From: Blautia sp.
GTDB taxonomy: Bacteria > Bacillota > Clostridia > Lachnospirales > Lachnospiraceae
NCBI GenBank assembly: GCA_029257805.1
Contig: JARIAR010000009.1
Coordinates: 1-64,000 of the forward strand
DNA: 64,000 nt
Direction of reading: 5' to 3'
This document shows positions 13,762 through 59,289 of this stretch, piece by piece. The position numbers were made by a program, and so were the translations under genes. Below the pieces are notes generated by a model that did not search any database, was not told where the DNA came from, and saw nothing but the letters and a program-made list of their open reading frames with translations. Numbering within the stretch: position 1 is the first letter of the stretch; every line of letters starts with the position of its first letter.

Positions 13762-13800
13762 ATTTTAATTTATTTTTGATAAAAATTTTTTCTAGTTGAG
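13762..13800 (-). promoter_or_regulatory. 27-bp-gap promoter of the parM operon
   Basis: Minus-strand CTCAAC (13795-13800), 27 bp, TAAAAT (13762-13767). It is a divergent member of the class. Confidence 0.6.
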
Positions 13801-13884
13801 AAATTTTTCTATGAGGGGATATTGTTAAAAAGCAATATTTCTCAAAACTAATTTTAAATAAGGAATTCAATTTGTAAACCATTT

Positions 13885-13912
13885 GAGGGCATCATATGTT
13901 GCCCTCTTTTTC
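13885..13912 (+). terminator. Plus-strand terminator without an obvious gene
   Basis: GAGGGC / GCCCTC stem followed by TTTTTCG on the plus strand. No plus-strand coding sequence precedes it, so it may end a short RNA made opposite the parM leader. Confidence 0.6.
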
Positions 13913-13920
13913 GTTGTACT

Positions 13921-13970
13921 ACAAAAGAAAAGCTGCTAATAGAAGTCAATATAGACCTTATTAGCAGCTT
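13921..13970 (-). terminator. Terminator of the hydrolase operon
   Basis: Minus-strand AAGCTGCTAATA / TATTAGCAGCTT stem followed by TTCTTTTG, right after the SGNH-NlpC/P60 stop. Confidence 0.9.
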
Positions 13971-13975
13971 GCTTG

Positions 13976-15865
13976 TTACCCACCTAAAATTCCATCTCCT
14001 AGGTTGTCTACGAATGATTTATGGCGGTAAAAGATTTTGAAATTTCCGTAAGTGTTGATATGTATACCGCTAAATCCTTCCGATGTTGTACAGTGTAGCC
14101 AAACATCTTGTCCGGAAGCACTTTTTCCAAGGTAAATTCCTACATGATTGCTACCTCCTGAAGCAATGGTGTTTTTCAACCCTACATCTCCCGGAATCAA
14201 TTCGTCATGGCTGATACTTCGGAAAGAAGATCCATCTACAAAATTACCCGTAGTCCAGTGGGGAAGAACATCTTTTATGCCGGCATAATAGAAGCTCCAT
14301 CCAACAAAACTGGAACAATCCAGATAACGCGGGTTATCCATGCTTGGCTGTAAGCGCTGATCCATACTGTATGTGACTTTTCCGTAAAGGGATACTCCCT
14401 TTTCGATGACTGCCTTTCTGCGCTCATCCATATTAGACGGCCAGGAACCCATAGCTTCCGTAAGAAGCTGTTGCGCACTTCCACTAAGATTTCCATTATT
14501 GATGTCAATAACAGAATAATATTTCAAAACTTTGTCCGGAAATTTCTGATCTCTGTAATCATATTTTCCCTTACTTCGAATTTCTTCTTCATTTGTACGC
14601 AATTTACCATCACATAACCTTGAAGCATATTCTTCAGCATTTTCCAAAGTATAAATATAATCACAAAAGATAATGTAACCCTCGTTTTCGAATTCAAATC
14701 CTTGCAGTACAGCCTTTAATTTTTTGGTATCATTGACTGCCGGAAAATTTGCAGCCCGGATACAACTGGCAAATAGTTTTGCAGCGATGTCTATGGATTC
14801 GTTAGATGTAATCTGCGGTGCTTTTCCTGGTTCTTCATCTTTATACGGATTTAAACCTGTATCTACAATTCGAAATATGTCTGAATCCCCTGGTATATGG
14901 CGGTACTCTGCTATCGCTTTAAACAGTTCTTTGTAAGTTAAAAAACCGTATTTCGATGCCGCATCTTCTATTTTTTTTACATATGGTTTTAAGTCTTCGG
15001 AAATTTTTGCAGTAATTTTAGAATCGGAATATAAAGTAACCCCCATTCCAGTAAAAGCGGTCCAGTTTGTCATCTGATATGTCAACAAGGCAGATTCTCT
15101 ATTCTCAGAACTCCACCACACTTTATTACCAGAGCTGGTGCCACTTCCTCCTGTGCTACTTCCTATCTCTTTTTTTAAATAAGATAATATTTTTTGTGAA
15201 GTGGCGCTGTCATAATGAAGTCCATCCACTGTTTTATAACCATTTCCTTTTAAGTATCCGTATAAGTCGATGAAATCCGCATTTGTTAGATTTTTATGCA
15301 TAGTAGCATTAAAGTCTACAACTTCGGAATCTGTTACATAATCATCATGATCTACAGGTCCTACAGAAGCAAAATATACATTTGCTCCCCTTTCATTCCA
15401 TACAGCTGCTTTTTCATTGATGGCTGAAATGTAATTGTTGATATTGTATACGTCATTCACTCCCATTAATATAATGACTGCTGTTCCGGAAGTGACTTGG
15501 CTGTCCGCAATCGGAAATGCGGTATTGACCATCCAGCTATATCCCATACTACTCAAGCACTGAAAGATACAATTGCTGTCACTATTTATGTCACGTAAAT
15601 CTTCTGTGCGGGAGTCGCCGATAAAAATATACTTATCAATACCTTCCACAGCGGTATCTCCGCCAGAGCCGATAAGGGAATCATCTGTCCTATTCAAAAC
15701 CTTTCGAAGTAATGTATATTCTTTCGAATCAATTTGTGTCATAATATTTTCTATTACTTCATTCAGGTCATCGAATATATTTTTCGCCTGTATATTAGAG
15801 AATATCAGGGAAGCGGATAATATTGAAGTAAGTACAGTTGTTACTATTTTTTTTCTTTTTTTCAA
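13976..15865 (-). CDS. Secreted SGNH hydrolase - NlpC/P60 fusion
   Basis: 629 residues. Signal peptide at 1-27. Residues 78-235 are an SGNH/GDSL esterase: FIGDSRTEDL with the nucleophile Ser, MGVNDVY as block III, and DGLHYDSAT with the Asp-x-x-His pair. Residues 500-620 are an NlpC/P60 (CHAP-like) peptidase: LDCSSFVGW with the catalytic Cys, NHVGIYLG with the His, and VWLHCTTS. The esterase could remove acetyl groups from cell-wall sugars while the peptidase cuts stem peptides, a plausible way to open the wall for conjugation. The TTG start has GGGAGG upstream. It follows the lysozyme gene by 12 bp. Confidence 0.85.
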   Translation of the reverse strand: MKKRKKIVTTVLTSILSASLIFSNIQAKNIFDDLNEVIENIMTQIDSKEYTLLRKVLNRTDDSLIGSGGDTAVEGIDKYIFIGDSRTEDLRDINSDSNCIFQCLSSMGYSWMVNTAFPIADSQVTSGTAVIILMGVNDVYNINNYISAINEKAAVWNERGANVYFASVGPVDHDDYVTDSEVVDFNATMHKNLTNADFIDLYGYLKGNGYKTVDGLHYDSATSQKILSYLKKEIGSSTGGSGTSSGNKVWWSSENRESALLTYQMTNWTAFTGMGVTLYSDSKITAKISEDLKPYVKKIEDAASKYGFLTYKELFKAIAEYRHIPGDSDIFRIVDTGLNPYKDEEPGKAPQITSNESIDIAAKLFASCIRAANFPAVNDTKKLKAVLQGFEFENEGYIIFCDYIYTLENAEEYASRLCDGKLRTNEEEIRSKGKYDYRDQKFPDKVLKYYSVIDINNGNLSGSAQQLLTEAMGSWPSNMDERRKAVIEKGVSLYGKVTYSMDQRLQPSMDNPRYLDCSSFVGWSFYYAGIKDVLPHWTTGNFVDGSSFRSISHDELIPGDVGLKNTIASGGSNHVGIYLGKSASGQDVWLHCTTSEGFSGIHINTYGNFKIFYRHKSFVDNLGDGILGG

Positions 15866-15877
15866 CTTTTCACCTCC

Positions 15878-18800
15878 CTACTTGACCAGAAAAACTTCAG
15901 AATAATGCGAGCCTCCCTGCAAGGTTTCCGCATGGGTATCAACGTATATATCAATATCTTTATTGTTTATAGCACCACCACAATCTTCTGCCGTGTATAC
16001 AATACCATTTATTAGTACCCTGGAACCGTATGGAATAATATTCGGATCAACTGCAATGGTATGATTGGCAGTAGCAAGTGCTCCTGTTGCTGTATTTCTT
16101 CCGTATCCCTCTGAGCATTCATAGCATGGACAGTAATATGTAATATGGTAAATTCCCAGGGATTCCGTTGTTTCTCCCGGTTGTAATCCCACTCCTCCGC
16201 TAGACGAAAGTCCATGATACGCCTGATACACAGTCTGGGCATAACTTACTCTGGTATCCATATGTGCAAGATTGATATTGGGACGCTCAAAACATGCTGC
16301 AAATGTATATGTTGCATCTTCAAGATCTGATATGGATTTGAATTGTTCATAGCTTACGTTATATTTTGGATTCCATCCAGATACACTATCGAAGCTCCAT
16401 TGACCGGAATGAAGTTCGCGGATCATAAATTCAATCTGTGCTTCCGCAGTGCTTGTTTTCAATGTCATACCTTTTGACGCAAGAAAGCTTAAAAATTGTT
16501 GCTTGCGGCTGCCGCTCCACTGACACATACCGACTCCAGGGCCACCGGTTTCTGTTGTATGAAGTAAAATATCATCAGGACCACCGCCGCCTTCTGCCAT
16601 GAGATTTGCCACCACTGCAGCAGCAGCTTCATCTGTACATCCTTCACTTTTCACAGCATTCCATACCTTCTCCACAGTGGAACTGCCCATAATATTTAAC
16701 ATTCCCAGCGCATCAGACCGAGCCTTAATAGAACAGTTAAATAACTGATCAAAATAGTAGGTGGTGACTGTAATAGTAAGATGTTTGTGTCCAGGACAAT
16801 TATAAAAAATATTTCCATCTTTATCTGTAACGGCAACACAGCCACCGCAATAAGTTGTTGTGACATTTTTTTGTACTTCATGAGATCCATTAAACAGACC
16901 AATCAAATAACAGCGTATCAACCACTGATATGTCATATCCGAGTAATCTTCATCGGATTGACCATTTGCTTCGATGAAACTTGCAAGTTTCTCAGCATCC
17001 ATTTCTTTAATGTAATCTTTATCCTCATTTTCTCCGGGGGAATATGCTTCCAGATCAAAATCGAAAAGTGCTGCCATTAAACACATACATTCTTTAATGT
17101 TGTTATCATCATTGGTAATACCTTCTTCATTTTTGTAGTCCGTATATGTCCTGGTATTCTTCTTATCGTTATAATTTACAGTAACTGTTTCATATGTAGG
17201 GTCACTGTAATATTTTTCTATATTCTCCCGAAATTTCACATGACATTGATTAAGGACGTCCACATATTGTTGAGCTGCAAGCTGTTGGGAAGTTTCCATT
17301 GAAGAGCCGTCCAACATATAAACAGATACAAACAGGGCAATAATAACTACTGCAATGATTACTACTACTACAACAGGCCCCATAGCAACAGCAGCGGCGG
17401 CAATAGAGGATACGATTGTGCGCACCACAGAAAATGTAACTTTTATAGCAGCGGCAGCTGCCTTGGCCCCTGCGCGAACCATTTTTGCTCCAGTTTTGGA
17501 AGTCATAACTGCAGCCTTTCTTGCTCCAGCACTTCCCACTTTAACTGCAAGCCTTTCGCCTGAAGCAAATACTTTTCTCGCAGCATGTGTTCCGGTTTTT
17601 GCAGCAGTCTTTCCCGCTTTATAAGAAGCTGTAGCGGCTTTTTTTACTTTTGGAGCGGTTTTTTTTGCTGTCCGAAGTGTTACATTTTTCATATATTTTG
17701 CTACTTTTCCCGTGGATTTAGAAGCCCGGTATACCGTTTTTATTGCAATCCGGGAAATTCTGGTGGAAAATAGTAATCCTTCGGAAGTATAACTTTGCGA
17801 TTCGCGTGACGCTTTTATAATCTGTCTTCGTATTTCAAGAGAAATATTACGCCGCACCACATGGAGAGACCTTAAAGTCCGTTGCTTCGCATAGTTGGTA
17901 TATTTCTCTAAGGAATTTGTTTTTATAAAAGCTTGCGCAATTTTCTCCTCTACTGCGCTTAACGATCTCGTGCGTATTAAATGTCGTAATTCTTTCACAT
18001 TTGAGGAAATCCCTCTATCTTTAAGTGCCTCTTCAAGAGATTTATGCAGAACATGTAAATTTTTCTGCTTTTTAGGATTAAATATCTCATCTTCTACCCC
18101 ATCGTGATATTCTGTTCCCATGACTTTTTCTATATATGGCTGCATAAGCTTTTGGAAACTACCGTCTGCATCTGCGCGTATATAATCGAAATCCACAGAA
18201 TGGTTAAAAGATTTCAACGCTATTTTACCAATTCCTCCTGCGGACTTTCCTATAATCACTCCGACTGCCGGATATACAACATACCGTCCAACAGTTTCAT
18301 GACTTGTTAAGATTCCCTGCCCAGTATAAGTGTTCGAAAGAGTATTCTGGGAATATAGTTTCGCTTCAAATGAAAGCGTTCGAATACCATTTTTGAGAGT
18401 TCTTTTTACATTTACTCCATTTACTCCATTTACTCCGTTTCCATACATAGTACAAAATCTGGCCGCACCATATGTAGAACGATGCTCTGCTTCAGTTTCT
18501 GAATCATTTTCAAGTTTGGCAGATAAGCGCTCTTCTTCATCTGAAATTCCATCGCGCATATCGGAACCTCTGGTATGCGACTGGGCTTTTTCTTCCGTAT
18601 CTTGGATTTTTTCTTCTTGGATATTGGTAAAAGGCATTTCCAGAAACTCTTCAAGACGGTTCTCTACGAAGCTGTCCTGACTTTTCTCAGAATGCAATAG
18701 CAATTCATCTGATTCTGTATCAGATAAATAGTCTTTTTTTTGAGAATCTATTTTGTTATTTTTGACAGTAGATTCAAAATTTGAAATATGTGGAGATATA

Positions 18801-19672
18801 ATGTCTGCTGGAAATTCTCCTTGTGATTCAGAAGAAGGCTTCAGCCCTAATATATCTGTCATTTCTCGAATCCGGAGATTTCGGGAATTTGATGCAAAGG
18901 TTTGAGTATCTGCAGATTCCCGAAGACCTTGATCTACTGTAACAGAGATAGTGTCTTCACTGTCCTTTACACGAAACTCTTCCGGATTGATTTCCTGATT
19001 GGAATTTCCAGCTTTCTCACGAGAAAGAAAAGGAATCTCTGCTTTTTCTGAAAAAGAGGTACGTTCTGAAAATTCATTCATTTCCCGAATTCGGAGATTT
19101 CGGGAATTTGATGCAAAGGTATTAGCATCTGCGGATTCCCGGATGCCTTGATTTATTGATATAGAAGCAGCATCTCCATTGTCTTTTGTATAGATCTTCG
19201 CTGAAGGAATATCCATATTAGAAAGCTCTGATTTTTCATGTATCTCTGTCGTTTGGAAGTATTGTTCTGAGGAAATCGATGCATCTTGAACCAATGAATT
19301 TTCTAACTCATATGGAAAAGTTTGGGCGCTTGAAAGCTGCCACAAGTCTTTACTTTCTACTTGCAATTTTGAAGATTCTTCCTCGGTCTTATCTTCATAT
19401 CTGTTGAATTCTGTATTAATCTGATTCTCTTCTGAAGTCACACTTTTCTGGATATGGTCACACTTTCTTTGCTCTTTAAAGTGTTCTGGAGTACCTATAT
19501 CATTAGGCTGCTGCTTTTCGGAGTCAGACTTTGTTTTATTAAAAATTTTCTGCTTATGCTCAGGAATCGCCCCTTCACTTGATGAGCGAGGTTTTGTACC
19601 AAAGTCAGAGCTACTTCTTGGCTGTCCCCTTACTCTTTGCCCTGTCTTTTTCTCACTTTTATCAGATGCCAC
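15878..19672 (-). CDS. Large membrane protein with lysozyme and 3D domains
   Basis: 1264 residues. Residues 1-420 are charged and probably disordered, with two copies of a ~33-residue repeat containing TFASNSRNLRIREM. NGVNGVNGVN (about residue 415) is a triple 9-bp repeat in the DNA. Residues 500-760 are basic and Ala/Lys-rich. A strong membrane helix lies at about 765-795. Outside it are a phage-tail-lysozyme-type domain (about 1000-1140: AAAVVANLMAEGG, GVGMCQWSGSRKQQF) and a C-terminal 3D domain (about 1180-1264: AVDPNIIPYGSRV, AEDCGGAINNKDIDIY). The large inner part and outer hydrolases fit a VirB1/CD1107-like role in the transfer channel. The GTG start follows AAAGGGG. Confidence 0.83.
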   Translation of the reverse strand: MASDKSEKKTGQRVRGQPRSSSDFGTKPRSSSEGAIPEHKQKIFNKTKSDSEKQQPNDIGTPEHFKEQRKCDHIQKSVTSEENQINTEFNRYEDKTEEESSKLQVESKDLWQLSSAQTFPYELENSLVQDASISSEQYFQTTEIHEKSELSNMDIPSAKIYTKDNGDAASISINQGIRESADANTFASNSRNLRIREMNEFSERTSFSEKAEIPFLSREKAGNSNQEINPEEFRVKDSEDTISVTVDQGLRESADTQTFASNSRNLRIREMTDILGLKPSSESQGEFPADIISPHISNFESTVKNNKIDSQKKDYLSDTESDELLLHSEKSQDSFVENRLEEFLEMPFTNIQEEKIQDTEEKAQSHTRGSDMRDGISDEEERLSAKLENDSETEAEHRSTYGAARFCTMYGNGVNGVNGVNVKRTLKNGIRTLSFEAKLYSQNTLSNTYTGQGILTSHETVGRYVVYPAVGVIIGKSAGGIGKIALKSFNHSVDFDYIRADADGSFQKLMQPYIEKVMGTEYHDGVEDEIFNPKKQKNLHVLHKSLEEALKDRGISSNVKELRHLIRTRSLSAVEEKIAQAFIKTNSLEKYTNYAKQRTLRSLHVVRRNISLEIRRQIIKASRESQSYTSEGLLFSTRISRIAIKTVYRASKSTGKVAKYMKNVTLRTAKKTAPKVKKAATASYKAGKTAAKTGTHAARKVFASGERLAVKVGSAGARKAAVMTSKTGAKMVRAGAKAAAAAIKVTFSVVRTIVSSIAAAAVAMGPVVVVVIIAVVIIALFVSVYMLDGSSMETSQQLAAQQYVDVLNQCHVKFRENIEKYYSDPTYETVTVNYNDKKNTRTYTDYKNEEGITNDDNNIKECMCLMAALFDFDLEAYSPGENEDKDYIKEMDAEKLASFIEANGQSDEDYSDMTYQWLIRCYLIGLFNGSHEVQKNVTTTYCGGCVAVTDKDGNIFYNCPGHKHLTITVTTYYFDQLFNCSIKARSDALGMLNIMGSSTVEKVWNAVKSEGCTDEAAAAVVANLMAEGGGGPDDILLHTTETGGPGVGMCQWSGSRKQQFLSFLASKGMTLKTSTAEAQIEFMIRELHSGQWSFDSVSGWNPKYNVSYEQFKSISDLEDATYTFAACFERPNINLAHMDTRVSYAQTVYQAYHGLSSSGGVGLQPGETTESLGIYHITYYCPCYECSEGYGRNTATGALATANHTIAVDPNIIPYGSRVLINGIVYTAEDCGGAINNKDIDIYVDTHAETLQGGSHYSEVFLVK

Positions 19673-19731
19673 ATTAACACCCCTTTCTTTTTTATAGAAG
19701 AATAAACTGCGTTTACAATATGACAGACAAA

Positions 19732-22592: not shown

Positions 22593-23189
22593 TTAAATAT
22601 TAAGAAATCTCTTCAGATATGCTCGCGACACATTCAAGACCTGCATATCTTCCTGCGTCCCGCCGTTATCTGTATGATACATTTTGGCAAGATCATGGTA
22701 TCTCTTTTTTAACTCCAATGAAGTTACCTCGCTTATATCAGAAAAGCCAAACACCTTCAGCGCTTTTTCCAATTCACTTTTTTCCTTTTTTTCTTCTTGA
22801 TAATAATGATAGGTCTCATCTTGTGATTCTGTATGTTCAGAATAATTATAAAATTCTTCCTGATGTTCTTCACGCTCATAATAATCATCATACCATTCTG
22901 CGTGCCGGTCCTGATATTTATAGGAAACATTTTCGAACAGGATATATTCAGAAATTCTTTTTGCGGTTATAGACAAAAGCTGCATGAGCCGCTGAAATAA
23001 GATTGTGAGTATGGGTGCAATAATAAGGTACAAAGGAATACTAAATATCCCTAAGATTCCATACGCTAAAATATTGTATGCTACAATCAGGAATATGCAA
23101 AGTTTTAAACTTTTCTCAGTATCCTTTACCCACTTATACTCTATATGTGTGCTGAGCTTAATCAATGAATTTGCTATTGTTTTTCCCAT
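22593..23189 (-). CDS. Membrane protein with C-terminal J-domain, HPD altered to HTD
   Basis: 198 residues. Two membrane helices at about 28-70, a Tyr/Glu/His-rich linker (100-135), and a C-terminal J-domain (140-198: LKKRYHDLAKMYHTDNGGTQ, VSRAYLKRFL). The HPD motif needed to stimulate DnaK ATPase reads HTD here, so Hsp70 activation may be weak or lost. Similar membrane J-proteins with an intact HPD occur on Firmicute elements. It has a 27-bp-gap promoter 31 bp upstream. Confidence 0.72.
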   Translation of the reverse strand: MGKTIANSLIKLSTHIEYKWVKDTEKSLKLCIFLIVAYNILAYGILGIFSIPLYLIIAPILTILFQRLMQLLSITAKRISEYILFENVSYKYQDRHAEWYDDYYEREEHQEEFYNYSEHTESQDETYHYYQEEKKEKSELEKALKVFGFSDISEVTSLELKKRYHDLAKMYHTDNGGTQEDMQVLNVSRAYLKRFLNI

Positions 23190-23219: not shown

Positions 23220-23258
23220 ATTTTATCTTGGTTTTCCCTATTTTTCTTTCCAGATGAA
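23220..23258 (-). promoter_or_regulatory. 27-bp-gap promoter of the J-protein gene
   Basis: Minus-strand TTCATCTGG (TTCATC at 23253-23258), 27 bp, TAAAAT (23220-23225). Confidence 0.7.
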
Positions 23259-24013: not shown

Positions 24014-25020
24014 ACTTTATTTCCTCCATAAACATAATTTAGAATGGCTTTATGCTGTTTGATATATGCTTCAAGCAGTTGGCGCTCGGCATCCACCTGT
24101 TTCTGTGCCATTTTAGCTCCAGTAATATCCATACCTCGCACGTAATGCACCGGAATCTTCTGGATATTATCAAACTTCAAATGGGGAACAGAACTGCCTA
24201 CCAAATAGTTCTTAAGATTTAATGCTGCCAACATGATTTTCATTTCCTCTGCAGGAATTTCGTTCATTTGAAGCCATAATAGTGACTTGTCTGCTACAGT
24301 ACCTGCGGGAATAACATGAATTTCAGCTGTTCCCCCATTTTTTTGAATTGCAATAGAATCTACCCCCAATCCTTGTTTATCCGTATATCCCGTAGGTCCA
24401 GAAGCACTATACACAATAGTGCCTCCCTTCAATCCGTCTATTGCATTGATAGCATGTGCAGGCTTGACCAGTTCACCAAGACACACATTGGGATTTGACA
24501 AATATGTTTCTTTCCATATCGCTTTCTGTAACCTTTCAACTACGCGTATTACCTCATATTGATTACGAATAATAGACTCAGAAAAATGCAGTACACATAA
24601 ATCCTGAGAAATATTCAGAAGAAACGGATATTCCGATAGGGCGTCTTTTGTCACATTTCTTCCTTTTAATTTTCTGCTTATGTAGTTTTTAAAACGAGGA
24701 GACTGAAGCTGATAATAAATGCTGTCTGTTAAAATGTCCCCTTTAGAATGAATCCGGTAAAAAAAGTTGGAAAATGTACATATTTTTTCATAACCACGGA
24801 ATAAAAATGGTTCAAAGAAACTTCCTGTCCTTGCCAACAGTATGTCATCTGGGTATAATCTGTTTTCATTTGTAGAGGAAGAAACTTTTTCATCTCCAAG
24901 GATACTATAGCTTTTCACATCTGTAATCCGCAGCATTCGAATTCCATTATAAGGTATTGTCTTGCTTTTTTTGCCGTAACATATATCCGCAATGTTACCA
25001 AGAGGTGTTGTGTTTTCCAA
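24010..25020 (-). CDS. hsdS: Type I specificity subunit (HsdS-like)
   Basis: 336 residues with two target-recognition-like halves and two conserved helical parts. LGNIADICYGKKSKTIPY and RLYPDDILLARTGS are typical of HsdS. The first coiled part is about 140-165. A second half begins with VCLGELVKPAHAINAIDGLKGG, and the end is KQVDAERQLLEAYIKQHKAIL. It sets the DNA sequence methylated by HsdM. The TTG start lies inside the end of hsdM with AAGGAG 9 nt upstream. Confidence 0.8.
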   Translation of the reverse strand: MENTTPLGNIADICYGKKSKTIPYNGIRMLRITDVKSYSILGDEKVSSSTNENRLYPDDILLARTGSFFEPFLFRGYEKICTFSNFFYRIHSKGDILTDSIYYQLQSPRFKNYISRKLKGRNVTKDALSEYPFLLNISQDLCVLHFSESIIRNQYEVIRVVERLQKAIWKETYLSNPNVCLGELVKPAHAINAIDGLKGGTIVYSASGPTGYTDKQGLGVDSIAIQKNGGTAEIHVIPAGTVADKSLLWLQMNEIPAEEMKIMLAALNLKNYLVGSSVPHLKFDNIQKIPVHYVRGMDITGAKMAQKQVDAERQLLEAYIKQHKAILNYVYGGNKV

Positions 25021-26488
25021 TTTTTTTCAGCTCCTTTTCTATTATATAATCGTATTTTTCTATTTGGGATTTTAATATTTTTTTCTGGTTCAATAAACCT
25101 TTAATATCAATTTCTTCCTCTTTGGAAGACTGACTTACAGCTTTCCAAAATAAAAAACCATCTGAGATTTCATCAGATTTTATCACTTGTGATATGTCAT
25201 CAGAATATGCTCCATCAGTTATACGCTTCTGCATTCTTTTCAAAATCTCATCTATGTGCTGTATTTTCATAATATTTCTGTTTTTTTGTTTGTTATACAG
25301 GTTTGAGGTGTCTATCATTTGCACATATTCCGAGTTTGGTTTTAACACCAGACAACACACTTCGATCGCAGTATTCATAAACAGATTTTTGGGAAGCATA
25401 ATAACCGTATGTACTAATTTTCTGTTTAATAGCCATTTTCGTATTTGGGCCTCTTTCCCTTTTCGGTAAAGAACACCGGAAGGCAATAAAATTACGGCCA
25501 GCTCTCCCATATGATACACAACATGTTGTACAAATGCATAATCTGCCCTTGACTTCGGTGCTGGTATTGGATACTTCTCTGTTTTCTGTGGATTCCATTC
25601 CAAGGAAAAGGGTGGATTGGTTACCTGGACCTGATAAATTTCTCTTCCATTATCTAATAGTGTATCTCCTATTTTATAATTTACTTTGCGGTAATCTAAG
25701 CCATGGATGAGAGTATTGAGCAAGGCTAGCCTGTGCGACGTCGCATTTGTGTCGCAACCGTATAATTGCTCTACTGGCATATGGCTTGTAATCTCCAAAA
25801 GCATCGAACCTGATCCCAGACAGGGATCGCTCAAGCTTTGGATTCTATCAAAAAACAGAGAAACAATATTACAGATCAAAACACATAAACAGTGTGGTGT
25901 GTAAAACTCTCCTGATTTTTTACCGGTGCCAGATTCAAAAAGGTTAAGAAGCTGCATGTACTGTTTGCCAATGAAATCCCCTGACTCCACAGAACAGGTT
26001 TCATTTACTGCTTTTATCACATTGCATAGAACTTCATTTTCCAGATCTTGCAGATCAACTCGGAAAATTGTTGTCAGCATATCCCGAATTTTATTATCAA
26101 AAGCAGAAGAGATGATGCGAAGAAAAATATTTTCCAAGTCTTCGGTAGTAAAAGAGATATCTTCCGCTTTTTTCAATACCACTGAAAATAAATCCTCTGG
26201 AAGAACATAATAGCCAATCGCAGAAAAACACTTCAAAAGCACAGCTTTTTTTTGTGGATTTTCCCATTGTACTACATAATCTTCTCCCAGTCCGACCGCA
26301 ATGGAATTGATCTTTTTAGATATGTACCAATAAAATTCCAAAGTAAAAAATATGTCTTTGTACTTGTGGGTTTCAACATGTCCCCTTAATGCAGTTGCTG
26401 TTTTCCATACTGGATCCATGATTTTTTTTTGCTTGGCAGTATCAGGTGTTTTGTTTTTACTGCCAGCTTCTCCTTTCGTACCTTTCAC
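24995..26488 (-). CDS. hsdM: Type I-like N6-adenine DNA methyltransferase
   Basis: Up to 497 residues. The S-adenosylmethionine motif appears as SDPCLGSGSMLLEI and the catalytic motif as VTNPPFSLEW (NPPF). The GTG at 26486-26488 overlaps the -10 box of the upstream promoter and can hardly be transcribed, so the true start may be the ATG at 26419 (codon 24). No restriction subunit lies nearby, so the pair is a modification-only system. It probably protects the element from host restriction or changes host methylation. Confidence 0.83.
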   Translation of the reverse strand: MKGTKGEAGSKNKTPDTAKQKKIMDPVWKTATALRGHVETHKYKDIFFTLEFYWYISKKINSIAVGLGEDYVVQWENPQKKAVLLKCFSAIGYYVLPEDLFSVVLKKAEDISFTTEDLENIFLRIISSAFDNKIRDMLTTIFRVDLQDLENEVLCNVIKAVNETCSVESGDFIGKQYMQLLNLFESGTGKKSGEFYTPHCLCVLICNIVSLFFDRIQSLSDPCLGSGSMLLEITSHMPVEQLYGCDTNATSHRLALLNTLIHGLDYRKVNYKIGDTLLDNGREIYQVQVTNPPFSLEWNPQKTEKYPIPAPKSRADYAFVQHVVYHMGELAVILLPSGVLYRKGKEAQIRKWLLNRKLVHTVIMLPKNLFMNTAIEVCCLVLKPNSEYVQMIDTSNLYNKQKNRNIMKIQHIDEILKRMQKRITDGAYSDDISQVIKSDEISDGFLFWKAVSQSSKEEEIDIKGLLNQKKILKSQIEKYDYIIEKELKKIGKHNTSW

Positions 26489-26525
26489 TATAATCTTTCC
26501 TGTTTTTTCTTGCCGCCCAGATGAA
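26487..26525 (-). promoter_or_regulatory. 27-bp-gap promoter of hsdM
   Basis: Minus-strand TTCATCTGG (TTCATC at 26520-26525), 27 bp, TATAGT (26487-26492). The upstream box lies within 10 bp of the end of the sortase gene. Confidence 0.65.
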
Positions 26526-27687: not shown

Positions 27688-28131
27688 TTAATTTTTTTCG
27701 GGTGCGTAGCGATAAATCAATGCGATAATATCTGCTACTTGATTCAGCCAAGAAAAATCATCGGAATCGACAGAATATGTACACTGATGATAAGGACAGG
27801 AGAACTCGCCTTCCAGTGGTTTGTCAGAACATACCCTTTGTGATTCGCTCGCATTATACATCGCCACTTTTTTTAGATTGCATTGGCCGTCAGGTGTTCG
27901 GTTACCAAGGCAGCGCAGCGCCTTTTCCAAATCCGGGCAATCTTTTACATCTGGTACGTCAACTGGTTCTTCCGTCATGACAACACGGAGTTGTCTCTCC
28001 ATCCATCTCAATTCTGCTATTTTTGTTTCAAGATTTTTCAGATCTTTTGTACGCATTTTAGGACACATGGCTGAAATGTATGTGTTTTCTCTCTGCAGAA
28101 CTTTTTTCAACAACTTACTAATTTGTTCCAT
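27688..28131 (-). CDS. Cys-rich unknown protein
   Basis: 147 residues from the ATG at 28131 (GGAGG upstream). The N-terminal 50 residues are helical and basic. The second half has Cys residues in CPDLEKALRCLGN, GQCNLKK, RVCSDK and FSCPYHQCTYS, which could bind a metal. Similar small proteins are common on Clostridial elements. Function unknown. Confidence 0.6.
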   Translation of the reverse strand: MEQISKLLKKVLQRENTYISAMCPKMRTKDLKNLETKIAELRWMERQLRVVMTEEPVDVPDVKDCPDLEKALRCLGNRTPDGQCNLKKVAMYNASESQRVCSDKPLEGEFSCPYHQCTYSVDSDDFSWLNQVADIIALIYRYAPEKN

Positions 28132-28174
28132 TTCACACCTCCGCAATTCCTATTCATATTCATGCTATGAAAAT

Positions 28175-28208
28175 ATGAAGAAAAGGCGGTTTCTCTCCGC
28201 CCTTTCTT
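28175..28208 (-). terminator. Terminator of the HD-domain gene
   Basis: Minus-strand AAGGGCGG / CCGCCTTTTC stem with a short loop and T-rich tail. Confidence 0.85.
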
Positions 28209-28228: not shown

Positions 28229-29143
28229 TTATCTGTATACTCTGGTTCCAAGTCCGAAAATCTTGTCTGATAACTCCTCACCTTCCATCATGTTTTCTCT
28301 GGTGCTGATAAATTGATACATACAAGCGTCTATGCAATCCAAGTGATGTAAAATACAAGCTTCAGGTATCGCCGGCAATTTAACAGCGCCGTGTTCAATC
28401 GTCCCGTGATGTGCCAATACCATATGTTGAAGCATATTTGCTTCTTTTTCTGGAACATCGTATTTTACTGCGTATTCCCTCACCATAACCGCACCGATAT
28501 AAGGATGTCCGAAAAGGGTTCCATCTGCAGTGTATTCTGCCCCACCGAAACCGTCACAGGAAAGTTCTTTTATTTTCCCTATATCGTGCAGGACAATCCC
28601 GCTTAATAGAAGTTCCCGGTTCACAGATTCAGAATAAACTTTTAAGATAGTGCAAGCAGAACGTACCATTGTCCATATATGGTAGAGCAAGCCGCCGCGA
28701 ATGTTATGGTGAATAATTTTGGCGGCGCCCCATACCATAAGTTTATCTTTATTATCTAAAAGAATGTTTCCTACCAGTGGCGCGTAAACACCTAATGTTG
28801 TAGAAAGATTATATATATCATCAAACATTTTCTCAGAAGGAAGTGGTGCGGATATAACAAATTCTTCTGGATTTCCATCTGCAACCAATTCGCAGCTATT
28901 GATACTATAGGAACGGGTATCATTGTACATTTTTACAAAAATAACCGCTTCTACAACATTTCCACGTTCAATCTCAAAATTTTCTTTTGCAGTATCCCAT
29001 AAATTTGCAGATATAATAGTTTCGCCATCTGAAAGTGACATATTAAGGTAAAGTGTATTGTTTTTTGTCCGTTTTTCTTCTACGTTTAAAAGTAATGCTT
29101 TTATCTTTGTAGCTTTGTTAAGTTCTAATTCTGTAAATCTCAT
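28229..29143 (-). CDS. YhaM-like OB-fold/HD-domain nuclease
   Basis: 304 residues. Residues 1-100 form an OB-fold nucleic-acid domain (IKALLLNVEEKRTKN, ANLWDT). Residues 145-290 form an HD domain: H in GGLLYHIWTM, then GIVLHDIGKI with the HD pair, and MVLAHHGTIEHG. This matches the YhaM 3'-5' exoribonuclease family. On the element it may trim RNA or process single-stranded DNA. AAAGGAG precedes the ATG, and a 27-bp-gap promoter and a palindrome copy are upstream. Confidence 0.83.
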   Translation of the reverse strand: MRFTELELNKATKIKALLLNVEEKRTKNNTLYLNMSLSDGETIISANLWDTAKENFEIERGNVVEAVIFVKMYNDTRSYSINSCELVADGNPEEFVISAPLPSEKMFDDIYNLSTTLGVYAPLVGNILLDNKDKLMVWGAAKIIHHNIRGGLLYHIWTMVRSACTILKVYSESVNRELLLSGIVLHDIGKIKELSCDGFGGAEYTADGTLFGHPYIGAVMVREYAVKYDVPEKEANMLQHMVLAHHGTIEHGAVKLPAIPEACILHHLDCIDACMYQFISTRENMMEGEELSDKIFGLGTRVYR

Positions 29144-29188: not shown

Positions 29189-29227
29189 AGTATAACATTT
29201 CCCATTTATTTAATTTTTTCAAATGAA
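29189..29227 (-). promoter_or_regulatory. 27-bp-gap promoter of the YhaM-like gene
   Basis: Minus-strand TTCATTTG (TTCATT at 29222-29227), 27 bp, TATACT (29189-29194). Confidence 0.65.
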
Positions 29228-31677: not shown

Positions 31678-33384
31678 TTAAGCAAATCGTAGCTGCCCTG
31701 TTTCTTCCTGGTGCAGCCGGTCTGGTCTGCATATAGGGACTCTTTTTGATATACACATTTCCGGAAGGTTCGCTTTAACTAAAGCGGCAGGAAGTGGTGG
31801 ACATACCGCATTTCCACATCTTTTTACTTGCTCTGTTCTTCCATACTTTTTTCCTTCAGAATCGTGATCAATAATGTAATCTTCGGGGAAACCCTGGCAG
31901 CCGTAAAGTTCTTTGGGTTCTAACATACGCAAACCGATGTCTACTATTTTATAGTCCACACCATGAATTGATACCAATCCAAATCGGTCATGCGTAGGAA
32001 TTGTATCCAGTGGAGAAGATACACTCTGCCCTGTTCCATTTCCGTAATATTTGATTAAAAAGGTTCGGACTTCCCCAAAGTGTCCGTCTCCGGCTGTTAT
32101 TGTTGGAAGAGGAGCAAAAATATCTTTTCCGTCACAATGATTGTTCATCTGAATTAAATTAGATGTCACTAAAATATTTTTCTCATGCTTTCTACTATGG
32201 ATCTTTGAATTCTTCCGTTCATTTTGAATATTGTGTTCCTTCAGAAAAGAAGTTACTAATGCGTATCGGTTTGAAGAATCTATTGTCAAAAGTGGCCTAT
32301 CTACTTTTTGCCCACGCACTTCATTCCCTCCAACTTCGGAATGGTACTGAACCAGATATGGCTGGACAATTCCATAACCATGTTTCCCAGTAATGGTTGG
32401 AAGAGGCTCATTGATATTATTCGGCCTGCGTTCTCCACCGTGATTGCATTGTATAATAAATGGTTCTGGATTTTCTAAAACAAATTTCTGCAATCCCTTT
32501 GCAATGCGCTGCATCGTTTTATATGCCAAAGGACGTACTGCACGTATTCCATATTTTTCTTTGATTTCTTCCGCTGTATCAAATATAGACGGGCACGGTC
32601 GGCTGAAATCAATCTGTGTATAAGCTCCAACATAGGGTTCTAAAATCCCCTTTTTGACATTTATACTCTCTTTCGGTCCATGAGTAGGTTCTGGAAATAC
32701 AATAGGTTTTCCATCACACCGGGCAATCATGAAAAATCGTTTCCGCATAGTTGGTGCTCCATAATCCGCAGCAATTAATTCTTTCGTTTCGATTTTGTAA
32801 CCAAGTGCAACTAACTGCTTATGCCATTTTTGATATGTTTCCCCCTTCCTTTGGGAATCTGGCTGAAAAATTTGACGGTTTGCTGGGATCACTTCACCTG
32901 GCTGCGCAATTCTTGTTTTTGGCATTCCTACCTTATAATCAGACGATTTTGTCATATCTACAATCACACGTCTTGTTTTATTATCCCTAAGTGGAATACA
33001 TGGTCCCCATGTCTGAAATTCTTCCACATTTTCCAACATAATTACTCGCGGACGTACCATAGCTGCCCATTTCAGTACAATCCACGCAAGTCCTCGTATT
33101 TTCTTTTCTACAGGTTTTCCACCCTTCGCCTTACTGAAATGTTTACAGTCTGGTGAAAACCATGCTAATCCTACAGGATGTCCCCCACACGCTTTAATTG
33201 GATCAACATCCCAGACAGATTCGCAATAGTGTTTGGTATTGGGGTGATTTGTTTTGTGCATTCGAATTGCTTCCGGATCATGGTTAATTGCAATATCCGG
33301 ACTATATCCAGTTGCAAGTTCGATTCCTGTCGATGCACCTCCTCCGCCTGCAAAATTATCTACAATTAATTCTCCATTAATCAT
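31678..33384 (-). CDS. dcm: C5-cytosine DNA methyltransferase
   Basis: 568 residues from the ATG at 33384 (AGGAGG upstream). Motif I is NFAGGGGASTGIELATG, the catalytic Cys lies in WFSPDCKHFSKAKGG, motif VI is MLENVEEF, and the C-terminal motifs include RMLEPKELYGCQGFP. A long insertion contains several PLPTI/PLLTID-type repeats, as in phage and mobile-element Dcm proteins. It has a 27-bp-gap promoter. It likely protects transferred DNA from restriction. Confidence 0.9.
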   Translation of the reverse strand: MINGELIVDNFAGGGGASTGIELATGYSPDIAINHDPEAIRMHKTNHPNTKHYCESVWDVDPIKACGGHPVGLAWFSPDCKHFSKAKGGKPVEKKIRGLAWIVLKWAAMVRPRVIMLENVEEFQTWGPCIPLRDNKTRRVIVDMTKSSDYKVGMPKTRIAQPGEVIPANRQIFQPDSQRKGETYQKWHKQLVALGYKIETKELIAADYGAPTMRKRFFMIARCDGKPIVFPEPTHGPKESINVKKGILEPYVGAYTQIDFSRPCPSIFDTAEEIKEKYGIRAVRPLAYKTMQRIAKGLQKFVLENPEPFIIQCNHGGERRPNNINEPLPTITGKHGYGIVQPYLVQYHSEVGGNEVRGQKVDRPLLTIDSSNRYALVTSFLKEHNIQNERKNSKIHSRKHEKNILVTSNLIQMNNHCDGKDIFAPLPTITAGDGHFGEVRTFLIKYYGNGTGQSVSSPLDTIPTHDRFGLVSIHGVDYKIVDIGLRMLEPKELYGCQGFPEDYIIDHDSEGKKYGRTEQVKRCGNAVCPPLPAALVKANLPEMCISKRVPICRPDRLHQEETGQLRFA

Positions 33385-33429
33385 TACCAAACCTCCTGAT
33401 GCAAATATGCAAAATTTACTTATGCATAT

Positions 33430-33468
33430 ATTCTATCTAAAAAGAAAATTTTCCTCTTTCCAGATGAA
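33430..33468 (-). promoter_or_regulatory. 27-bp-gap promoter of dcm
   Basis: Minus-strand TTCATCTGG (TTCATC at 33463-33468), 27 bp, TAGAAT (33430-33435). The upstream box directly abuts the T-run of the previous terminator. Confidence 0.75.
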
Positions 33469-34784: not shown

Positions 34785-34789
34785 AGCCA

Positions 34790-34917
34790 TTTCTCCCTTC
34801 GTTTTTTATTTACGAAAAAATTATGATTTATGCCGTCATATGATAAAACACCCGCAGCAAATGCCACGGGTGTCAAAACGAAAGGATTCTGGAAGGTTTG
34901 CTCCCTTCCATGAATAT
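34790..34917 (-). promoter_or_regulatory. Structured leader of the PARP-like gene
   Basis: From the promoter: stem TGGAAGG / CCTTCCA (34890-34910), then CCTTTCGTTTT, a GC-rich stem ACACCCG ... CGGGTGT followed by TTTT (34848-34873), and the SD in AAAACGAAGGGAG. CCTTTCGTTTT can pair with AAAACGAAGGG over 11 bases with one G-U, which would hide the SD. Confidence 0.65.
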
Positions 34918-34956
34918 ATAGTACCCTTCTGTAAGGATAAGTTTTTTCCAGATGAA
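34918..34956 (-). promoter_or_regulatory. 27-bp-gap promoter of the PARP-like gene
   Basis: Minus-strand TTCATCTGG (TTCATC at 34951-34956), 27 bp, TACTAT (34918-34923). Confidence 0.8.
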
Positions 34957-37216: not shown

Positions 37217-37255
37217 TATAATACCATTTTGGAACGCTATGTTTTCTCCAGATGA
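37217..37255 (-). promoter_or_regulatory. 27-bp-gap promoter of topB
   Basis: Minus-strand TTCATCTGG (TTCATC at 37250-37255), 27 bp, TATTAT (37217-37222). Confidence 0.8.
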
Positions 37256-37274
37256 AGAATTTGGAAATAAATCG

Positions 37275-39021: not shown

Positions 39022-39214
39022 TTTCTCCTTTCGTGATATGAAATTTTTGACATAGTTAATATGTATTTTCTGTGTAAATAATGAAGTTCCTAGGTAGATT
39101 CATATACTTTTTTTATATTTTGGGCATTAGACTGATACACCAAAACACCCGCAGCCAATACTGCGGGTGTCAAAACGAAAGGATTCTGGAAGGCTTTCTC
39201 CCTTCCATGTATAC
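39022..39214 (-). promoter_or_regulatory. Structured leader of the 37949-39016 gene
   Basis: Stem TGGAAGG / CCTTCCA, CCTTTCGTTTT, then a GC-rich stem GACACCCGCAG / CTGCGGGTGT followed by TTTTGG (terminator-like). The SD region CACGAAAGGAG can pair with CCTTTCGT over 8 bases. AGAAAATACATATTAA near 39060 is repeated at about 59780. Confidence 0.6.
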
Positions 39215-39253
39215 ATAATACTACTCTTTAAGGATTAGCATTTCCCAGATGAA
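39215..39253 (-). promoter_or_regulatory. 27-bp-gap promoter of the 37949-39016 gene
   Basis: Minus-strand TTCATCTGG (TTCATC at 39248-39253), 27 bp, TATTAT (39215-39220). Confidence 0.8.
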
Positions 39254-54075: not shown

Positions 54076-54486
54076 TTACTCTTTTTTCCGATTAATAAAT
54101 ACCAAAACAACTCCGAGTATAAAAGACATTCCTCCAATTGCAATAGCCCCAAGTATCGTCATTTCAAGGTTCGTATAACCGAGTATTCGAGACGGAGTAT
54201 TCACATCTATCCGAATTTCTTCCTCGATTCCAGTTCTTAATATTCTTGTTCCAAATTCTATTTTTTTTGACTCATAAGATTTACCATCTATTTGATACTG
54301 ATATGTGATGCAGATTCTACCAGATTGATAGCCTGTTCCTGTTTGTACAATTTCAATATCTTTAACTTTTGCTGAAACAATTTTTGACTCTGTAGACATC
54401 ACAGTAAAAACTGTCATCATCGCAAGAAATGGAATTATAACTAAGAACAATATATTCATAATTATTTTTGTAACTTTATTCATCAT
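54076..54486 (-). CDS. Membrane protein with two helices (DUF3592-like)
   Basis: 136 residues. Helices at about 8-28 and 110-132 enclose a beta-rich extracytoplasmic part (ICITYQYQIDGKSYESKKIEFG, EEIRIDVNTPSRILGY), the layout of DUF3592 proteins. AAAGGAGAG precedes the start. It has its own 27-bp-gap promoter. Function unknown. Confidence 0.65.
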   Translation of the reverse strand: MMNKVTKIIMNILFLVIIPFLAMMTVFTVMSTESKIVSAKVKDIEIVQTGTGYQSGRICITYQYQIDGKSYESKKIEFGTRILRTGIEEEIRIDVNTPSRILGYTNLEMTILGAIAIGGMSFILGVVLVFINRKKE

Positions 54487-54560: not shown

Positions 54561-54599
54561 ATCCTACCATTTTACAATATAAAACTTTTCTCAGATGAA
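54561..54599 (-). promoter_or_regulatory. 27-bp-gap promoter of the DUF3592-like gene
   Basis: Minus-strand TTCATCTGA (TTCATC at 54594-54599), 27 bp, TAGGAT (54561-54566). Confidence 0.65.
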
Positions 54600-56698: not shown

Positions 56699-57634
56699 TC
56701 ACTGCCCTGCACCAGTCCGATTTCTCTCCTGGTGCTCTAACGCAATTTTAAATTCATGCTTATAATACATATCATAAAAACAATCTATTTGTCGTTTCAT
56801 TTCCGAAACACATTCTATCAGATCATCTGCCCCGATATAATGTATGTTCTTTTTATAGCTGTTCTCTTTTGCAGCAGAAACAGTAATGGTTACCGTGCCG
56901 TCTTCTTTTTTCTGTATTGGAGCAATTACATTTTCCATCACAATGCTGTATGCAGACTGGCTGTTGCGCTGAAAATAAATCCCCATACGGCTTCCTTTGT
57001 AGTATGTATTACCATTTTCCTTTATCGGATGATAAATGTCTGCTTTCCATTCCTGTACATATACTGGAATTTCTGATACCAATGCAGGTTGCGCACTGGA
57101 TAACTGCCCATTTCGATAAAGTACCAACGCTTCCTTACAAGCATTAATGAGAGTTTGATTTTGCGGATATTGCTGCAAGTGCTGTGTAAGCCAATTTATT
57201 TGGCTTTCAATAACAGATACCCCATCTGAAGACTCCAAGAGGACTGTTGCGGGAGTTTTCCCTTTCAATTTCCCAGCACGGAAAGTCATTGTCTGGCAAG
57301 GCGGAAGGGAATCATTTTGCTCCTGTACAGGTTCTGAAAGCGCTTTTATTTTTTCCGACATATATAGATTATTAAAAAAGCGTATTTTTTCCAGTAGCGT
57401 ATCTATTTTCTGAGGTTTCAAGTTTACGAACATTCCGTTGCAATTATGAATAATGGAACATTTGAAAACGGAATAGGGTGAAAAAATTTTAAGTGGAAAA
57501 CATTCTTTACCTTCCCTCTCGTTTTCTCCTATTTTTTCAGGCGACAATGCAGAAAATAAAGCTTCTATAGAAAAAACAGATTTTCCGTTTTTCGTATTGA
57601 TAATATGAGAGTAAATCTCCATTGGATATTTCAT
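56699..57634 (-). CDS. Unknown protein
   Basis: 311 residues, soluble. AGAAAGGAG precedes the ATG. The middle has an Ala/Thr segment (RAGKLKGKTPATVLLE) and the C-terminus a helical region (ECVSEMKRQIDCFYDMYYKH). It is expressed from a 27-bp-gap promoter. Function unknown. Confidence 0.62.
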   Translation of the reverse strand: MKYPMEIYSHIINTKNGKSVFSIEALFSALSPEKIGENEREGKECFPLKIFSPYSVFKCSIIHNCNGMFVNLKPQKIDTLLEKIRFFNNLYMSEKIKALSEPVQEQNDSLPPCQTMTFRAGKLKGKTPATVLLESSDGVSVIESQINWLTQHLQQYPQNQTLINACKEALVLYRNGQLSSAQPALVSEIPVYVQEWKADIYHPIKENGNTYYKGSRMGIYFQRNSQSAYSIVMENVIAPIQKKEDGTVTITVSAAKENSYKKNIHYIGADDLIECVSEMKRQIDCFYDMYYKHEFKIALEHQERNRTGAGQ

Positions 57635-57667: not shown

Positions 57668-57706
57668 ATTTTATCGTATTGGAGAAAAACATTTTTTTCA
57701 GTTGAA
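57668..57706 (-). promoter_or_regulatory. 27-bp-gap promoter of the 56699-57634 gene
   Basis: Minus-strand TTCAACTG (TTCAAC at 57701-57706), 27 bp, TAAAAT (57668-57673). Confidence 0.65.
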
Positions 57707-57857
57707 GAATTTTAAGCATTTGTGATATGACCATAAAAATCTATTTTATAAACAGTATTTTCGACATCAACAGTTATTCTTGTTCCGTACTGATCTGCCA
57801 AAAAATTTAAGAGAAATATGACCAATATAGGAATCCAAGAACCATGACCTTTTTTCC

Positions 57858-57883: not shown

Positions 57884-57938
57884 AATTTTACAATGGTATT
57901 TATATGTAGTTGACTACTATTTCCTGTAATACAGTTTC

Positions 57939-58550
57939 TTATTTTCCCAGTAGATTATTGATAGCCTCTAGTATATCTCCTATTTTCATTACCTCATCCA
58001 TCGTACAATAGTCTGTTTCCGATGAGACTACACTGATAGTATCGGGATTATGTCCTGCCAAGCGTATACATCTCGTACATGACATTGGCAGCAGATAGAT
58101 CCGATCTGAACTATCACATTCATTAAATACGGATAAAAGGAATTTTAAAGCACGTTCCATCTTCTTTATATCCCCGCACTTTTCTACTATCTCAACATAA
58201 TCCATATCTCCAATTATTTTCGGATAAGTTTCAATAGTTTTCAATTCCTTGGCTTCTATATATCGGATTAATTCCAGCGTTTCTCCTCTTTGAAGAACAG
58301 CAAATCCTTTAAGTGTTTCAAATTCTGGCACAAGGCATATATCAATATATGAATCATTAACTTTTCCAGATAGATACAGCTCCGGATTTAGTATTTTAAA
58401 CTTTAGTCCATGAATCTTTTTTTTCAATACACATAATACAGAAAATTTGTGACACACTTTTTCTAACTCTTCTTCTGTAATCTTTACAAGAACAGAACGG
58501 CATAAATCTTTTAGTTCCTCTTGTACATCTAAATTTTCTTTATAGTTCAT
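57939..58550 (-). CDS. Unknown soluble protein
   Basis: 203 residues. AAGGGGG precedes the ATG. Mixed alpha/beta with helical ends and a Cys pair in MSCTRCIRLAG. Expressed from a 27-bp-gap promoter only 32 bp upstream. Function unknown. Confidence 0.62.
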   Translation of the reverse strand: MNYKENLDVQEELKDLCRSVLVKITEEELEKVCHKFSVLCVLKKKIHGLKFKILNPELYLSGKVNDSYIDICLVPEFETLKGFAVLQRGETLELIRYIEAKELKTIETYPKIIGDMDYVEIVEKCGDIKKMERALKFLLSVFNECDSSDRIYLLPMSCTRCIRLAGHNPDTISVVSSETDYCTMDEVMKIGDILEAINNLLGK

Positions 58551-58581
58551 TTATAAGCCCCCTTTTTTCTTTGGCGATTAT

Positions 58582-58620
58582 ATTTTAGCAACGATCAGCT
58601 TTTACTGCTATCCAGATGAT
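58582..58620 (-). promoter_or_regulatory. 27-bp-gap promoter of the 57939-58550 gene
   Basis: Minus-strand ATCATCTGG (ATCATC at 58615-58620), 27 bp, TAAAAT (58582-58587). It overlaps the stop codon of the gene before. Confidence 0.65.
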
Positions 58621-58934
58621 TAATCCAAGTCAATATCCTGAACATCATTAGAATCGAACAAACTCAACTGCCCTGGAAATGCATCACCGCAATCCCGGAC
58701 CTTTTTTCCGCCAGTTATGATTAATGGAAGTTTAGGGACGGGCTTATTAAAGTGCTTACAGGCAATACAGGATTCCTTCCAATCTGTATCACTATTTGCA
58801 GTGTTTCCGTATACAAGGCACTTATATACTTTTCGTTTTCCATTTTCTACCCGGACAAGATTTTTACATTCTCGACAGGTATGGCACCGATTAGTCCCTC
58901 CAGACCACTTATACATTACTTGCATTTTTGTCAT
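58620..58934 (-). CDS. Cys-rich metal-binding protein
   Basis: 104 residues from the ATG at 58934 (AGGAGG 8 nt upstream). CHTCRECKNLVRVENGKRKVYKC-like text and CIACKHF place six Cys in two knuckles, a probable zinc site. The C-terminus GQLSLFD... is acidic. Function unknown. Confidence 0.62.
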   Translation of the reverse strand: MTKMQVMYKWSGGTNRCHTCRECKNLVRVENGKRKVYKCLVYGNTANSDTDWKESCIACKHFNKPVPKLPLIITGGKKVRDCGDAFPGQLSLFDSNDVQDIDLD

Positions 58935-58952
58935 AAACATATCCTCCTGCGC

Positions 58953-59045
58953 TTACGTTACAATTAGAGCAACCCAAAATAGAACAAACAACACCAATGG
59001 AACCGCCCAAAAAAACATGGTTTCAATCCAATAGCTTTTCTTCAT
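58953..59045 (-). CDS. 30-residue membrane peptide
   Basis: MKKSYWIETMFFWAVPLVLF... is almost wholly hydrophobic after the first eight residues. AAAGG touches the ATG, so the SD spacing is poor. It lies between the promoter at 59251-59289 and the Cys-rich gene. The stretch 59046-59383 holds that promoter, a hairpin (59059-59080) and a terminator, and no other gene. Confidence 0.35.
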   Translation of the reverse strand: MKKSYWIETMFFWAVPLVLFVLFWVALIVT

Positions 59046-59250
59046 CCTTTTCGTCTAACTCACGACTGGAAGTCACGAGTGTGCGATAAATTGTTATCAA
59101 ATGTAACTAAAATCCCTGGAACATAGAATACCGGACCAAAGTATGAATCATCCCATTATTTCTGCTCATACCCAATATGCTCTTTTTCTAAGAACTCCAT
59201 TATTTTTTTTCATAAACGTCCTTCCTGCTTTTTCTGTTCTTTATGACTAT

Positions 59251-59289
59251 ATTCTACTATACAAGCGGAATACTATTTTTTTAGATGAG
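59251..59289 (-). promoter_or_regulatory. 27-bp-gap promoter near the end of the accessory region
   Basis: Minus-strand CTCATCTA (CTCATC at 59284-59289), 27 bp, TAGAAT (59251-59256). It should drive the 30-residue peptide and the Cys-rich gene. Confidence 0.65.

Follow-up and report, generated by a model that had tools for sequence, protein, structure and literature searches.

In the common view, conjugative elements are under the control of local activators and a small number of repressors. For individual promoters, class II activation of sigma-70 promoters that lack a -35 element and carry an extended -10 is well described: the activator site is centred near -41 and keeps a fixed phase to the -10, and classical sites of this type are mostly dimeric palindromes. 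In the middle promoters of phage T4, which form a temporal class, the box of the MotA activator replaces the -35 upstream of a host -10 and is centred near -30. A plasmid-encoded sigma factor with a plasmid regulon is represented by SigN (ZpdN) of plasmid pBS32 from Bacillus subtilis; according to the excerpted account of this system, the sigN gene has sigma-A promoters plus a self-activated promoter and is released from LexA, and SigN itself reads promoters composed of -35 and -10 regions (PMC6751061). Here, we analysed a 64,000-base window from Blautia sp. (assembly GCA_029257805.1), i.e., bases 1-64,000 of contig C13 (JARIAR010000009.1; 218,856 bases), which is occupied by a mobile element of 114 kb. 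The left end of the element falls outside the contig, and genes past ~114.5 kb look chromosomal from a reading of their translations. The element carries a private class of predicted promoters, hereafter class A, for which we found no description among the papers retrieved, as judged by titles and abstract openings.

At all 12 listed window sites, class A consists of a TTCATCTGG-like box on the minus strand, exactly 24 nucleotides (nt) and the hexamer TAnnnT. The original prediction had listed 12 minus-strand sites with an exact gap of 27 bp. All of them exist, and the gap is exact in 12/12 when counted from TTCATC, as 27 nt after TTCATC equal 24 nt after the 9-mer TTCATCTGG; only the coordinate listed as 37217 is actually 37218. 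The box is exact in six window sites and looser in the other six (e.g., CTCAACTAG, TTCATTTGA, TTCAACTGA, CTCATCTAA), and a relaxed pattern drawn from the 12 sites matches no other place in the 64 kb. The predicted class A promoters of the window are as follows:

13762..13800, minus strand: CTCAACTAG-N24-TAAAAT, upstream of the ParM-like partition gene 12459-13442
23220..23258, minus strand: TTCATCTGG-N24-TAAAAT, upstream of gene 22593-23189
26487..26525, minus strand: TTCATCTGG-N24-TATAGT, upstream of the N6 DNA methylase gene ~24995-26488, whose called start overlaps the -10
29189..29227, minus strand: TTCATTTGA-N24-TATACT, upstream of the HD-domain gene 28229-29143
33430..33468, minus strand: TTCATCTGG-N24-TAGAAT, upstream of the C5 DNA methylase gene 31678-33384
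34918..34956, minus strand: TTCATCTGG-N24-TACTAT, upstream of the PARP-domain gene 33504-34790
37218..37256, minus strand: TTCATCTGG-N24-TATTAT, upstream of the topoisomerase (TopB-like) gene 34969-36951
39215..39253, minus strand: TTCATCTGG-N24-TATTAT, upstream of gene 37949-39016
54561..54599, minus strand: TTCATCTGA-N24-TAGGAT, upstream of gene 54076-54486
57668..57706, minus strand: TTCAACTGA-N24-TAAAAT, upstream of gene 56699-57634
58582..58620, minus strand: ATCATCTGG-N24-TAAAAT, upstream of gene 57939-58550
59251..59289, minus strand: CTCATCTAA-N24-TAGAAT, upstream of gene 58620-58934

Five more sites, all on the minus strand, were found on the contig past the window (73359, 81548, 95060, 98141 and 104326). 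The hexamer at the class A gap is CATAAT in site 104326 and TAnnnT in the other 16 of the 17. The genes downstream of class A sites encode ParM-like partition, DNA methylation, HD-domain, PARP, TopB-like topoisomerase and UvrD-like helicase functions as well as many unknowns. In keeping with the original prediction that the class spares the island for ribosomally synthesized and post-translationally modified peptides (RiPP), the stretch from 39.3 to 54.5 kb, which is expected to hold it, is free of sites. Separately, the leaders of three class A sites (34848-34923, 37147-37223 and 39145-39220) are alike over a long stretch (CATGGAAGG..TTCCAGA.TC.TTTCGTTTT) and contain a small hairpin.

All six exact copies of TTCATCTGG on the minus strand are followed by TAnnnT at a gap of 24, exact copies are absent from the plus strand, and shuffled sequence contains 0.15 exact boxes per strand. 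When contig bases 1-114,000 were scanned for word-gap combinations without a prior motif, TCATCTGG at gap 24 ranked first among ~1.3 million 8-mer tests (p=4.5e-11); in the 6-mer version, an unrelated word ranked first and ATCTGG at gap 24 second. As a positive control, the same scan of other host contigs returned TTGACA at gap 17 as the third 6-mer. A matrix built from the 12 window sites, used with a main threshold of at least 19 bits, gave 16 matches in the 114-kb element, all on the minus strand, of which four lie outside both the window and the training set. Leave-one-out scores of the 12 training sites ranged from 9.5 to 33.4 bits; given their low scores, the weakest sites (26525 and 29227) rest mainly on exact spacing and position.

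The outcome named as refuting the original prediction, matches as common in coding as in intergenic sequence, did not occur: 15 of the 17 class A sites overlap no called gene of at least 60 amino acids, in an element of which 87% is called coding. The two exceptions are site 58620, which shares one base with a stop, and site 26525, which overlaps only a doubtful GTG start; three further sites touch doubtful open reading frames of 49-52 amino acids. Every site (17/17) lies on the strand of the following gene.

The class is also restricted to the element within our sample. At 19 bits or more, the rest of C13 (105 kb) had no match to the matrix, and the 229 kb from 19 other contig stretches had a single one, which is intragenic and antisense. 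At 12 bits, the counts were 16 in the element, four in the rest of C13 and four in the other contigs, showing that background appears at lower scores. The originally proposed two-box scan of the whole element and related elements yielded the further sites on C13 and no match of at least 19 bits in ~317 kb of related elements and their surroundings. A protein scan of genome contigs revealed no close relative with the same box. The nearest relative of the coupling protein within the genus shares 46-49% identity, and no class A match of at least 12 bits occurs in the two contigs covered for it (G403 C268 and C246, 20 kb) or in the fetched stretches of the related genomes G394, G398, G336 and G345.

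The arrangement of class A resembles that of a sigma-70-type promoter, with a -10-like hexamer at a fixed distance, in intergenic position and sense to the gene. With TAnnnT taken as the -10, the box covers positions from about -45 to about -37 and is centred near -41. The original claim that no normal -35 box sits at 17 bp was borne out, since the best match to TTGACA at 16-18 nt reaches at most 3/6 in 17/17 sites; 14% of background sites reach at least 4. An element-wide class without a -35 is supported. A G is found at -14 in 11/17 class A sites vs. 22% of the background, and TG in 5/17 vs. 7%. Under the same assumption about the -10, this is the layout of class II activation: a site near -41 in fixed phase, no -35 and, in part, an extended -10. 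The class A box differs from classical class II sites in that it is single, asymmetric and 7-9 bp long; it shares with them the fixed phase to the -10. Like the MotA box of T4 middle promoters, it takes the place of the -35 upstream of a host-like -10 on a mobile element; unlike it, the class A box is centred near -41 (again if TAnnnT is the -10) and not near -30.

The UvrD helicase of the element led us to plasmid pCY360 of Butyrivibrio proteoclasticus B316 (NC_014389). Homologs on pCY360 (E value of 1e-4 or better) exist for 24 of the 102 called element proteins of at least 60 amino acids, and the matched genes include VirB4, VirD4, ParM, SSB, RecD2-like, PARP, topoisomerase and DUF4317. Near-duplicate upstream regions, which as repeats could create the appearance of a fixed gap, were removed before motif discovery in pCY360 (157 to 149 in one run) and before a blind word-gap test. 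After masking of the commonest class, motif discovery returned TTTGTGCAGAAAAATA followed by TATAAT, and a class A-type pattern emerged as TGTGCAG-N26-TAnnnT. Box counts, which cover six of eight stretches of the plasmid (300 of 361 kb), gave 99 TGTGCAGAAA boxes with up to one mismatch; TAnnnT follows at gap 26 in 22/99 and at any other gap in at most 8. Among exact TGTGCAGAAA boxes, 21/36 have TAnnnT at 25-27 and 27/36 are intergenic.

Although the boxes differ, the distance from box start to -10 is 33 nt in both the element and pCY360, and the top words of both stood in this 33-nt register in the blind test. Applied to two host samples, the test returned TTGACA at 23 as the core of the top words in one and nothing notable in the other. 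In pCY186, a 186-kb plasmid from the same strain as pCY360, none of four TGTGCAGA copies has TAnnnT at 26 and one has it at 25, as compared to 23/64 at 26 in pCY360. Judged from these comparisons, the geometry is common to both elements and the box is different, following the element and not the host. Two candidates for further instances were rejected. The best blind-test word of pCY186, GCGATGT, starts 32 nt before the -10 and was dismissed as evidence (four sites, p=3e-4 among thousands of words). Plasmid pRUMAL01 (NC_014824, 190-390 kb) has a plasmid-wide class TTTTAT..TTTTC..TATAAT (36 sites in 119 upstream regions), which is not class A as its -35 distance is normal.

A divergent sigma-70 protein is encoded by the element at contig positions 88921-89859, 25 kb outside the window. 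Its region 2 matches Pfam Sigma70_r2 (E=3e-10, 40.2 bits vs. a cut-off of 24), and the NCBIfam sigma70-ECF match of 38.8 bits lies under the cut-off of 42.9. Region 4 has no Pfam match in the element protein; the alignment is suggestive, and the homologs in pCY360, G398 and G394 give long sigma matches. Homologs were found in pCY360 and in five relatives (G394, G398, G336, G345 and G403). A single-sequence search detected a relative in only 2/397 genomes of the family, the genome itself (G000) counted. A three-row profile matched 60/64 genus members at 1e-6; judging from scores of around 1e-11 and frames of around 386 amino acids, most of these are probably ordinary sigma factors. Counted from class A site 95060, the gene is the sixth on the same strand; the successive gaps measure 98, 7, 131, -4 and 60 nt, and no further class A site intervenes. 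A terminator scan flagged none of these gaps and one find just after the sigma gene, its four finds being a chance number. The pCY360 sigma gene follows the class A-type site 266960 as the third gene, and the genes overlap or are 10 nt apart. The placement of a sigma gene downstream of a box site in both elements hints at a phage-like cascade, with co-transcription from these sites being putative.

The element also has a second upstream signal, CATATT (class B). In a test of hexamers located 14-75 nt before start codons, judged against expectation, CATATT was the top hexamer of the element (19/66 regions, 3.2 expected); over 300 shuffles, the count averaged 1.8 and never exceeded 7. It was also the top hexamer in G398 (17/50, 2.3 expected), and in G394 CCATAT came first and CATATT third (7/16 each). 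In pCY360, CATAAT was the third hexamer (38/202, 7.8 expected), and TATAAT led in both host samples (13/42 and 26/111). Motif discovery recovered CATATTT in G398 (23 sites, 58 regions), TCTTATATATTT in G336 (17 in 30) and TTTTATTTT..CATAAT in pCY360 (47 in 149). The element copies occupy 20 places in the 19/66 regions, 25-68 nt before start codons, and several are followed by AAAACGAAAGGAG. CATATT occurs within the leader of seven of the 15 class A sites for which a proper leader is given, 95060 among them. It was ruled out as the -10 of class A, for which 16/17 sites have TAnnnT. The candidate class B sites on the minus strand of the window, each unproven individually, are as follows:

10064..10069, minus strand: candidate CATATT -10-like site before gene 9590-10015
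19717..19722, minus strand: candidate CATATT site before gene 15878-19672
28172..28177, minus strand: candidate CATATT site before gene 27688-28131
33404..33409, minus strand: candidate CATATT site downstream of the class A promoter 33430-33468
39058..39063, minus strand: candidate CATATT site downstream of the class A promoter 39215-39253
59779..59784, minus strand: candidate CATATT site before gene 59384-59737

A plus-strand copy is located at 61319 in the window, and copies elsewhere on C13 include 68708, 84265, 85519, 88760, 101688 and 110112. On contig C18 of G394, a related element, a repeated leader like CCATATT-N6-TGTAACTATTCACA..ATGGAG lies just before the ribosome site, with copies upstream of the genes at 404, 3323, 13744, 14786, 25388, 33768 and 36170.

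The element sigma factor probably reads class B, and together they could form an element-borne sigma regulon reminiscent of SigN, whose gene likewise combines sigma-A promoters with a self-activated one, the arrangement that we propose for the element sigma factor and class B; the class A box with its 33-nt phase found no counterpart in the excerpted account of that system (PMC6751061). Common to the element and pCY360 are the box register, the presence of two promoter classes and a sigma-70 gene preceded by a class A-type site; they differ in that the box of pCY360 is TGTGCAG instead of TTCATCTGG and its class B has an upstream TTATTTT box plus CATAAT. The search for an element-encoded sigma factor or activator, as originally suggested, delivered the sigma factor with its own-looking class CATATT; no activator was singled out. 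A small HTH_3-like protein is encoded at contig positions 81733-81966, with a match below the Pfam cut-off.

Considering the features above, we think it probable that class A sites are -35-less, partly extended -10 promoters used by host sigma-A polymerase with an element-encoded, sequence-specific activator on the box. The activator would occupy positions from about -45 to about -37 in the manner of class II activation, and host sigma-A RNA polymerase would read class A with its help; the position of the box, the missing -35, the G at -14 and the host-like -10 all point to this arrangement. A factor encoded by the element would fit the change of box between elements. The original prediction had left the choice between an activator and a special sigma factor. 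The former fits better with the 33-nt distance, the host-like -10 and the G at -14, and the latter is disfavoured. In particular, direct recognition of class A by the element's own sigma-70 factor, for which the box would be a displaced -35 element, is unlikely. In its favour, the element does encode such a factor from a gene downstream of a class A site, Pfam fails to see region 4 of this protein because of its divergence, and site 104326 combines the class B-like -10 CATAAT with the class A gap. However, the box starts 33 nt before the -10, ~10 nt beyond the customary 23 at which TTGACA stands in one host sample, the class A -10s are TAnnnT in 16/17 sites with G at -14 in 11/17, and G398 and G394 carry homologous sigma factors and CATATT, but no class A.

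The lack of intergenic matches at 19 bits in the 334-kb host sample, the different boxes of the element and pCY360, and the lack of the pCY360 class in pCY186 from the same strain make it quite improbable that a host transcription factor binds the box and is merely borrowed by the element, even though the host chromosome is known only from that sample. The sign of regulation does not follow from position alone, and a repressor or nucleoid protein at the box would leave class A repressed instead of activated. Sites without a -35 would be weak unaided, however, and the box shows asymmetry and a fixed phase to the -10, so that we regard such a role as very improbable.

Several observations weigh against the activator-based explanation or its extension to the sigma factor. 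The host outside the element was sampled at only 334 kb of ~2.5 Mb, and general motif discovery in the element returned the palindrome described below, a ribosome-site motif and a stem-loop ahead of class A. In six other elements, no class A-like word reached significance in the blind test; three of these elements gave no word with four sites, and the short sets (19, 30 and 60 upstream regions) are weak evidence of absence. Among orthologs of the element and pCY360 (24 pairs minus the MobV pair 61357), class A is not kept beyond chance: two of 23 pairs have it on both sides, with six on each side alone and 1.6 expected. A loose search (E value of 0.5) for small element proteins with pCY360 relatives returned seven, including SSB and a CHC2 primase-like protein, and no obvious transcription factor. 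With regard to the sigma factor, its link to CATATT is correlative, CATATT is not enriched in G336 (3/29) or the G403 contigs (2/16), and the pCY360 site 266960 has GATAAT, not TAnnnT. Finally, a hairpin of 12 pairs with a T run (-13.5 kcal/mol) is present in the 131-nt gap at 92088-92218 and could stop or attenuate transcripts.

If the activator-based explanation is extended in this way, the class A site upstream of the element sigma gene may drive production of this factor, which would then read class B, in the order activator, sigma factor, class B that we infer. A possible, if tentative, generalization is a two-stage, phage-like programme in large conjugative plasmids and integrated elements of Clostridia, in which an activator would drive class A early or during establishment and a sigma factor would drive CATATT or CATAAT late, the fast-diverging box at a fixed register marking the private circuit of each element. 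Because the hairpin lies between site 95060 and the sigma gene, we rate the cascade lower than we otherwise would.

Apart from the promoter classes, the element contains a 22-bp palindrome, AAAACGAATTwwAATTCGTTTT, in 11 copies with up to two mismatches. Six are in the window (10142, 11608, 13707, 29265, 37865 and 57860) and five farther along C13 (71855, 77603, 84299, 98167 and 104622), with weaker copies at 108490 and 111497; several are close to class A promoters. Neither the 229 kb from other contigs nor the part of C13 beyond 111.5 kb has a copy with up to four mismatches. The palindrome is possibly a partition or operator site. A repeated stem-loop around GACTAAAGTC or similar occurs upstream of the C13 genes at 103684, 12266, 30738 and 3725 and is probably a small repeat or terminator.

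If true, a whole-element promoter class with its own activator, combined with a sigma factor with its own class, would amount to a host-independent programme as in large phages, and regulons of unnamed genes would become readable from sequence. The idea lends itself to direct testing, as pCY360 belongs to a named type strain. The apparently private, strictly spaced promoter box, and the same layout around another box in a distantly related rumen plasmid, suggest that such elements carry their own gene-control programme.

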